Made by a program: the position numbers and the translations under genes. From positions 1 to 64,000 of the forward strand of contig JANXLU010000055.1 in NCBI GenBank assembly GCA_025354985.1: 64,000 bases of DNA, given 5' to 3'. The first letter of the stretch is position 1; every line of letters begins with the position of its first letter. Positions 20,914 through 23,174 of the stretch are shown one piece after another. The stretch comes from Chloroflexota bacterium (lineage in GTDB: Bacteria > Chloroflexota > Anaerolineae > J036 > Brachytrichaceae). The notes beneath the pieces were generated by a model, which worked only from the letters and a program-made list of their open reading frames with translations, was not told where the DNA came from and did not search any database.

Positions 20914-22242
20914 TTACCCAGCCGGGCTCGTCGGTTCAGGTGCTGCCTCCAACTCGGTTACAAGCGCGTTGCCAATTTCGTTCCCGCGTCGGATAAATCG
21001 CCCATACAACCAAAGCAGCGGCGCATGCAAGGCGCTGGCCAGCGCAAGAGCGGCCCGAACGCCAAATGATCCACCCACCGCACCCACTGCTGGGCCCGCG
21101 CCAAACTGACCAAGCGCATTTGCCTGGCTAAGCATGCTCAGCACCGTGGCACGCACGCGCCCGGGGATGTGCAGGTTTATCCACGTGCCCGAGATCGTGC
21201 CGGGCGGGCCATAGAAAAGCTCGCGCAGAACCAGAAAAATGATCGCAAGCGCAAAGCTGCCTGTGACCGCAAAGCCCAACGAGCACACCACAACAATGGC
21301 ATAGCTGGCCATGAGCCAGCGCGCAACAGTGGCGTTTGGCGTTGCCGAGGTCACGGTGAACCGTCGCTTCACAACCTCCCAAAAGGGCACTCCGATGATC
21401 ATCCCTAAAAACTCCACCACCGCAAACCAGGCGATTGGGTCAAGCGCGCCGATGCCGATGATCGGCAGTGACAGCACCGGCAGGCTAAAGTTGTTCAACA
21501 CATGGCTCTCCCACAAGCGATCCCAACCCTCGCTGGCGCCACCGCGGATAATTTCGGCGACCACCAACAGAAGCACCACCGGTGTGCCGCGCACAACACC
21601 GCCACTCTGACGCAGCGTGGCAACTATCGTGCGCGCATCGTCCCGAAGGGTTGCGCCGATCGCACGCTCCGGGCGCACAAACCCAGTTTCGGGCATGATG
21701 AAGCACAGCGCGATGTTGAAGAGCAGCAACAGCCCGGCACCCGTGAGGATGGCCGCTTGATAGCCAAACAGACTGGCCAGCGCCACGCTGATCAGCGTAC
21801 CGATCACCCAGCACACCCGCCACACCTGGGCATTTCGCGCATGCAATTCACCCATATGCTCCGCCCCAATTTCGTCGGTTATCCAGGCCTCGGTGGCGCC
21901 GCTGCGAAACGTTTCGCCGATGCCGCGGATCACCTCGGCGGCGATCACCACAGCGAATAACGGCAACGAGCCTTCCAATAGGTAGGTCAGGCTGATGAGA
22001 AAGCCGCCAATCAAAACCGAGAGGCGGCGACTATAGACATCCGCCACGATGCCCGTGGGGACCTCGAACACAAACGCGGTGACCTCGATCGCGGTGCCTG
22101 TCAGCACCAGTTGCAACGGGCTCATCCCGATCACCCGCACATAGTATGCCGCGAGCGCCGTGAAGATCATTTTCATCGCTATCGCGTTGATTGCCGTATA
22201 GAGCAAAAAGACGCGTCGCGCAGACATTTTTGAAACACGCAT
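20914..22242 (-). CDS. MFS transporter
   Basis: 442 aa from ATG 22242 (MRVSKMSARRVFLLYTAIN); ATG 22227 is an equal candidate, and the longer open frame to 22341 runs back through the hairpin of the preceding unit and is not used. About 12 hydrophobic helices are visible, with the MFS loop motif between helices 2 and 3 (PTGIVADVYSRRLSVLIGG). The order of motifs resembles the drug or metabolite efflux groups; no substrate can be assigned. It lies behind a terminator that separates it from the small ORF and DUF1638 gene. Confidence 0.88.
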   Translation of the reverse strand: MRVSKMSARRVFLLYTAINAIAMKMIFTALAAYYVRVIGMSPLQLVLTGTAIEVTAFVFEVPTGIVADVYSRRLSVLIGGFLISLTYLLEGSLPLFAVVIAAEVIRGIGETFRSGATEAWITDEIGAEHMGELHARNAQVWRVCWVIGTLISVALASLFGYQAAILTGAGLLLLFNIALCFIMPETGFVRPERAIGATLRDDARTIVATLRQSGGVVRGTPVVLLLVVAEIIRGGASEGWDRLWESHVLNNFSLPVLSLPIIGIGALDPIAWFAVVEFLGMIIGVPFWEVVKRRFTVTSATPNATVARWLMASYAIVVVCSLGFAVTGSFALAIIFLVLRELFYGPPGTISGTWINLHIPGRVRATVLSMLSQANALGQFGAGPAVGAVGGSFGVRAALALASALHAPLLWLYGRFIRRGNEIGNALVTELEAAPEPTSPAG

Positions 22243-22291: not shown

Positions 22292-22330
22292 GAAAAACTA
22301 AAAACCGCGACACATGCACTGCGTCGCGGT
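22292..22330 (-). terminator. intrinsic terminator of the DUF1638/small-ORF unit
   Basis: Read on the minus strand: ACCGCGAC (22330-22323), an 11-nt loop, GTCGCGGT (22311-22304), then TTTTAGTTTTT. It lies 30 nt behind the stop of the 23-codon ORF and before the MFS start. Confidence 0.85.
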
Positions 22331-22360
22331 CTGGAAGGCATTCAACTCAAACCTGATCGG

Positions 22361-22432
22361 TTAGAGGTGTGACATCTTAACGGGCGGCGCATCATGCGCA
22401 AAATTAATATTTTGTTGGATTTCGATTTTCAT
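22361..22432 (-). CDS. small peptide gene, 23 aa, strong ribosome-binding site
   Basis: The ORF MKIEIQQNINFAHD, then APPVKMSHL and a TAA stop, is preceded by a perfect AGGAGG (22448-22443) 10 nt before the ATG. Most genes of this window lack such a site, so this is good evidence that it is translated. It starts 41 nt after the stop of the DUF1638 gene on the same strand and is followed by an intrinsic terminator (22292-22330), so it is the last gene of that transcript or has its own. It has no cysteine, no signal peptide and no membrane helix. It could be a small regulatory or leader-like peptide, or a precursor of a modified peptide, but no modifying enzyme is near. No family recognised. Confidence 0.6.
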   Translation of the reverse strand: MKIEIQQNINFAHDAPPVKMSHL

Positions 22433-22442
22433 TTGTAATGCA

Positions 22443-22448
22443 CCTCCT
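22443..22448 (-). promoter_or_regulatory. Shine-Dalgarno AGGAGG of the small peptide gene
   Basis: The minus strand reads AAAGGAGGTGCATTACAA before the ATG at 22432. It is among the best matches to the anti-SD sequence in the window and sets the start of the 23-codon ORF. Confidence 0.75.
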
Positions 22449-22472
22449 TTGCAAAGATTTTCTGAGCCAAAA

Positions 22473-23174
22473 TTATACCGCCACCAACGCCCCCCGACGC
22501 GCGCTTTTGCGCAGTCGCGCAAGCGGGGTGCGATTGGGTAGCGCGGAGTGCAGCGGTGCATCCGGCAGGGTGGGCGCATATTTGTCGAGGTGCAACTCGG
22601 CCATCAGTGATACCAACCGTGTTTCAAGCCCGCCATATCCGGTTGTTTGGAGCTCAAGCGGCAGACCCAACCGGGCGGCAATTGTGAACGCCTTGTCAGC
22701 CAGTACTGCGCTGGGCTCTTGTTGCAAATACACCACCCGGGTGTAGTGCTTGAAATAGTCTTCGCGCAATTCCGGGTGGCGATCCAGTCCAAGCGTTTTC
22801 CAAATGGTGCCGGTAAACCCGCGCACTAAAAAGTCCGTCAGAAAAAAAGTGCCGGGCTGCTCCGCCATCAGCGCATCGTGCGCCGCCCCGCCATACATTT
22901 CATAGCAGTGCGGCCCGGTCAGCCTTGGCACATGGTAGTGCGCCAGCACCGCGTCCAGAGTGCCCCCGGTGCCGCAATCGCCATACACCACCACCATGCG
23001 ATCATGGCTTGGTATCAGCTCCCGCAGCTTGTGCTCAACATGCGGGGCGATACGCATTGGCAGTGAGTGATCGGCCGACGCGATGCCATGCAGGGTTGCG
23101 TCCCACCCATGCCGCCGCACGATGGCCACCACTTCGCGCCCCAACGCCCCGCACAGCACAAGGCCCGTTTTCAT
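22473..23174 (-). CDS. DUF1638 domain protein
   Basis: 233 aa from ATG 23174 (MKTGLVLCGALGREVVAIV). The pattern MRIAPHVEHKLRELIP, VVVYGDCGTGG, HCYEMYGG and FFLTDFLVRGFTGTIWKTL is that of the DUF1638 family. Members are known next to corrinoid-dependent methyltransferases and their activators in methanogens and acetogens, but their role is not established, and no methyltransferase or corrinoid gene is in this window. The conserved Cys, His and Glu residues (GDCG, HCYE) suggest a metal or ligand site. It starts 63 nt from the divergent ppk1 gene and is followed by the small peptide gene. Confidence 0.82.
   Translation of the reverse strand: MKTGLVLCGALGREVVAIVRRHGWDATLHGIASADHSLPMRIAPHVEHKLRELIPSHDRMVVVYGDCGTGGTLDAVLAHYHVPRLTGPHCYEMYGGAAHDALMAEQPGTFFLTDFLVRGFTGTIWKTLGLDRHPELREDYFKHYTRVVYLQQEPSAVLADKAFTIAARLGLPLELQTTGYGGLETRLVSLMAELHLDKYAPTLPDAPLHSALPNRTPLARLRKSARRGALVAV

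Follow-up and report, generated by a model that had tools for sequence, protein, structure and literature searches.

What is the role of a 23-codon open reading frame (ORF) that carries an outstanding ribosome-binding site and lies between a DUF1638 gene and an MFS transporter gene? The question concerns the minus strand of the window, i.e. the whole 64,000-nt stretch of DNA that was analysed. An earlier note had described the ORF as complete, with AGGAGG 10 nt before its ATG and one of the best ribosome-binding sites of the window. This description was confirmed, and the region in question contains the following elements.

22361..22432, minus strand: leader ORF of 23 codons, peptide MKIEIQQNINFAHDAPPVKMSHL* (ATG at 22432, stop at 22361-22363)

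22441..22450, minus strand: Shine-Dalgarno (SD) sequence AAAGGAGGTG, the strongest of the window and the core of RNA segment 1, which engages in the 1:2 pairing in the free fold

22472..22477, minus strand: TATAAT, probably the -10 element of the leader transcript, assigned from sequence and overlapping the DUF1638 stop codon (22475-22473)

The AGGAGG itself occupies 22448-22443. With an anti-SD duplex energy of -15.3 kcal/mol, the SD ranks first among the window's 2109 ATGs, both strands counted, and 10 shuffled windows yielded one ORF of 8-45 codons with an equally good site. The 4.2-Mb genome holds 12 sites of the type AGGAGGTG-N4-9-ATG (against 1 for a reversed-pattern control); among them, the leader ORF alone is both short and followed by a terminator, and no second leader of the same type was found at the other sites. 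The peptide gave no protein-family match in profile searches. At the DNA level, a comparison of the leader with 60 relatives returned the self-match only, and no close pair emerged when closer homologues were sought in the families of G258, G065 and G037.

Downstream of the ORF, two further elements are found on the same strand.

22302..22332, minus strand: intrinsic terminator stem-loop (segments 3 and 4), 13 pairs, 5-nt loop, -20.6 kcal/mol

20914..22242, minus strand: candidate controlled gene, an MFS transporter of a TetA(P)/Tet(40)-like subfamily, starting at 22242 just past the terminator

The intrinsic terminator that had been claimed behind the ORF is thus present as a 13-bp stem (22332-22302) adjoined by a T tract (22304-22291). 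It lies about 28 nt past the leader stop codon and 60 nt ahead of the MFS start, i.e. between the leader ORF and the gene that it would control. For the leader promoter of the query only a poor -35 match is available and a good one is absent; in L017, L039, L086, L101 and L041, TTGAC(A/T) and a TATAAT-like hexamer occupy the corresponding position, measured from the SD.

The MFS protein matches Pfam MFS_1 (5.6e-14), and its best named families in NCBIfam are TetA(P) (2.5e-67) and Tet(40) (8e-61), over nearly the full length. These tetracycline efflux proteins are the top-scoring named families, but the query protein falls far short of their curated naming cut-offs (227.5 vs 750 bits for TetA(P), NF000043; 206 vs 800 bits for Tet(40), NF000049). 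Judged by these matches, it belongs to the same subfamily as TetA(P) and Tet(40) and is not one of those named resistance proteins.

It is proposed that the 23-codon ORF encodes the leader peptide of a ribosome-mediated transcription attenuator, predicted to control the MFS efflux-type gene (probability of roughly 0.83). This reading is based on the strong SD, the short ORF, the mutually exclusive predicted pairings 1:2, 2:3 and 3:4, and the recurrence of the same layout in six other genera.

The recurrence was established from the upstream regions of MFS homologues, which were found in 104 of the 396 class-level and 64 of the 400 phylum-level genomes, and whose named records come mainly from Chloroflexota, Anaerolineae. 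The screen asked whether such a region contains a short, SD-bearing ORF and, after it, a terminator. An ATG ORF of 16-24 codons together with a terminator of at most -18 kcal/mol is found at seven loci (the query L015, and L017, L033, L051, L060, L086 and L101) from seven genera and six families. Only ATG-initiated ORFs were admitted to this set and the pairings were not a criterion, though some of them had been eyed before testing. All seven loci share the order promoter, strong SD, 16-24-codon ORF, terminator and MFS gene, and their leader peptides have no sequence in common. At several of them the promoter is a good one of the TTGAC(A/T)-TATAAT type. When three leaders were aligned as a trial, the alignment proved too loose for a covariance model. 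The leader is absent before many MFS homologues, among them the closest, L016 and L122, and that of the same-genus G001. Homologues that stand directly behind another gene do not have it, so the leader is, by this comparison, a plug-in element.

For the RNA pairings, segment 1 was defined as the SD region (about 22458-22436), segment 2 as the end of the leader ORF or the stretch just past it, and segments 3 and 4 as the terminator arms. In the query, segment 2 is located as follows.

22374..22398, minus strand: RNA segment 2, covering roughly codons 12-20 of the leader ORF, assigned from predicted pairs with shuffle controls

Two alternative partners are predicted for segment 2: the SD, giving the anti-antiterminator, and the 5' arm and loop of the terminator, giving the antiterminator. 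The query antiterminator comprises 16 predicted 2:3 pairs (22398-22379 with 22331-22311), and the leader fold has a z of -4.3. When segments were exchanged between the seven loci, the mean energy changed from -24.6 (own) to -20.7 kcal/mol (exchanged) for the 1:2 helix (p = 0.0002) and from -24.8 to -20.8 kcal/mol for the 2:3 helix (p = 0.0026). By this cross-locus permutation the pairings are maintained across related loci. RNA structure rather than codons is thus what is kept, an outcome that the earlier note had named as speaking against its own proposal. Compared with shuffles, the strength of the 2:3 pairing is marginal for the query taken alone (p = 0.07) and no better than shuffled in L060 (p = 0.68); for the seven loci combined, the Fisher p is 4e-6.

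The predicted pairing also depends on the position of the ribosome. When the query transcript is truncated at the terminator loop and a ribosome occupies codons 1-3, 14.0-14.5 segment-3 bases are paired with segment 2; the figure is 1.7 without a ribosome and near 0 with a ribosome at later codons. This switch was reached by none of 300 segment-2 shuffles (p = 0.003). Combined over the seven loci, the ribosome-dependent change has a p of 0.004, or 0.06 when the query is left out. No such change is seen in L051 and L101, where the 1:2 competition is missing as well. As proof of a switch, equilibrium folding of the full leader fails for the query, and the terminator beats the antiterminator nearly everywhere, the exceptions being L086 and L051 with the ribosome at particular codons. 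That the antiterminator excludes the terminator depending on ribosome position is a prediction, which equilibrium folding alone does not bear out in the query. Since the terminator wins at equilibrium, the attenuator model requires co-transcriptional timing.

The proposed mechanism would then proceed as follows. In the unstressed cell, the ribosome would traverse the leader ORF and cover segment 2, allowing the 3:4 terminator to form. If the leader is not translated at all, segment 2 would bind the unused SD (1:2) and the terminator would form as well. In both cases the MFS gene would be off. When translation is inhibited, ribosomes would be held at the first codons and segment 2 would be left free. 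The free segment 2 may then capture the emerging segment 3, thereby blocking the terminator. With the antiterminator formed, RNA polymerase would read into the MFS gene and the pump gene would be switched on.

The inducer is probably a ribosome-targeting antibiotic or another translation inhibitor. By analogy it may possibly be of the tetracycline type, which is plausible given that the pump's relatives are TetA(P) and Tet(40). Because of the dependence on early codons and the lack of a conserved peptide, a general elongation inhibitor fits better than a drug that causes peptide-specific stalling. The leader peptide need not have a function of its own.

An alternative is that the leader ORF controls translation of the MFS gene by release of its ribosome-binding site, or acts via Rho, and that the intrinsic terminator is constitutive. 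A precedent exists in Sinorhizobium, where an upstream ORF mediates Rho-dependent attenuation in the presence of tetracycline (PMC12218461). Also relevant here is a second group of leaders before MFS homologues (L130, L146, L157, L040 and L042). Their ORFs start with ATGTCAG.. and encode MSV.. or MSA.. peptides. The leaders mostly have no clear terminator and instead contain a CTCACTCGTG-type segment that is complementary to the CACGAGTGAG immediately ahead of the MFS start. This arrangement resembles attenuation at the level of translation, acting on the same family of pumps. For the query, however, this explanation is unlikely: its strong terminator stands 60 nt ahead of the MFS start and segment 2 is specifically complementary to the 5' arm of that terminator, whereas no matching helix is found at the MFS start of the query. 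A broader picture can be put forward tentatively, with somewhat less than even confidence. Chloroflexota would have a family of leader ORFs that lack a conserved peptide, use no drug-specific stalling peptide and respond to ribosome arrest of a general kind at the first few codons. These ORFs would turn on TetA(P)-like efflux genes, and the attenuation would act on transcription in some lineages and on translation in others.

The earlier note had placed the ORF as the last gene of a DUF1638 unit that ends at the terminator, possibly encoding a regulatory peptide, a subunit or the precursor of a modified product. The strand is indeed shared, the ORF starts only 40 nt past the DUF1638 stop, and its excellent SD would suit a small functional protein. 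Yet such an ORF is absent behind DUF1638 at all twelve homologous loci examined (three same-genus genomes and nine others), and another gene directly follows DUF1638 in the three same-genus genomes. The ORF instead recurs before MFS homologues in six other genera, with unrelated peptides in the leaders; it also has its own TATAAT, and its peptide is without a family match. A DUF1638-linked peptide was thus rejected, and a small protein of that unit is very unlikely. The subunit and the precursor find no support, as the ORF goes with the MFS homologues; the idea of a regulatory peptide survives as a cis-acting leader ORF and is dropped as a DUF1638-associated product. Because the ORF is missing at the DUF1638 loci and the MFS gene starts just past the terminator, the ORF is better read, from gene order, as part of the MFS 5' leader, opening the next unit rather than closing that of DUF1638. 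In the same-genus L003, L004 and L005 (compared with window positions 22473-23174), a cinA-like gene is found after DUF1638, in the place where the query has the leader and the MFS gene. From this replacement it follows that either the module was inserted or the gene order was rearranged in the query species.

It is barely credible that the ORF is spurious and owes its good SD, and its place between the end of a gene and a terminator, to chance: short ORFs are common and the query peptide is without a close homologue, but the SD is the best of the window, the RNA pairings are coupled across loci, and such ORFs are in excess before MFS homologues (11 ATG ORFs of 8-32 codons with an SD of -13 kcal/mol or lower in 203 upstream regions, a few of which are pairs representing one genome from two collections, against 1.1 in shuffled sequences and 0 on the opposite strand).

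The kind of system proposed for the query is already known from ermK, mef(E)/mel and bmrCD, whose published logic matches the proposed mechanism (PMC5418344, PMC4335068, PMC4191407). The macrolide efflux attenuator of mef(E)/mel from Streptococcus pneumoniae has in common a short leader ORF with AGGAGG, stem-loops that exclude one another and an intrinsic terminator, followed by an MFS efflux gene (PMC4335068). It resides in a Gram-positive mobile element and has the conserved stalling peptide MTASMRLR, whereas the Chloroflexota leaders precede a gene for a TetA(P)-like MFS protein and their peptides vary by locus, none resembling MTASMRLR or showing the conservation of macrolide/erm-type leaders. 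The bmrBCD attenuator from Bacillus subtilis also combines terminator, antiterminator and anti-antiterminator to control a transporter, and translation of its leader ORF serves as sensor for ribosome-targeting antibiotics, as is proposed for the query (PMC4191407). It differs in controlling an ABC transporter and in having the terminator inside a longer leader ORF, rather than past the stop codon. In ermK, vmlR and lmo0919, a drug-stalled ribosome on the upstream ORF favours the antiterminator, again as proposed here; these attenuators control ribosome methylase or ABC-type resistance genes and belong to Firmicutes, and no sequence relation to the query was found (review PMC5418344).

Two other classes were considered and rejected. 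A trp/his-type attenuator of amino-acid biosynthesis does not apply, as the leader peptide has no regulatory codon run and the controlled gene encodes an MFS transporter instead of a biosynthetic enzyme. A known RNA family was likewise dismissed, with no Rfam match above the gathering score in the window and none near the threshold in the leader. In the literature searched, of incomplete coverage, no report of leader-peptide transcription attenuation in Chloroflexi was found.

With the attenuator reading, an unexplained small ORF becomes a testable switch for inducible efflux in Chloroflexota. It suggests that uncultured environmental bacteria may have drug-responsive regulation for a subfamily that counts clinical tetracycline pumps among its relatives, and the inducer of the switch would indicate the natural substrate of the pump.

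Some further arrangements were observed. A third leader type occurs in L022, L023, L025 and L029 (family f46), where the peptide M..AATLI.P.TF.GVLECA is common to the four related genomes; its SD is weak and it is located about 240-300 nt ahead of the MFS gene. The MFS homologues of L068, L069 and L089 have a strong conserved upstream terminator of the GGCCCACACGT..ACGTGTGGGCTTTTTT type with no obvious strong-SD leader ORF. Within the window, two more very short ORFs, of 9 and 14 codons, are among the best SD scores, at 2059 (plus strand) and 14169 (minus strand), respectively.
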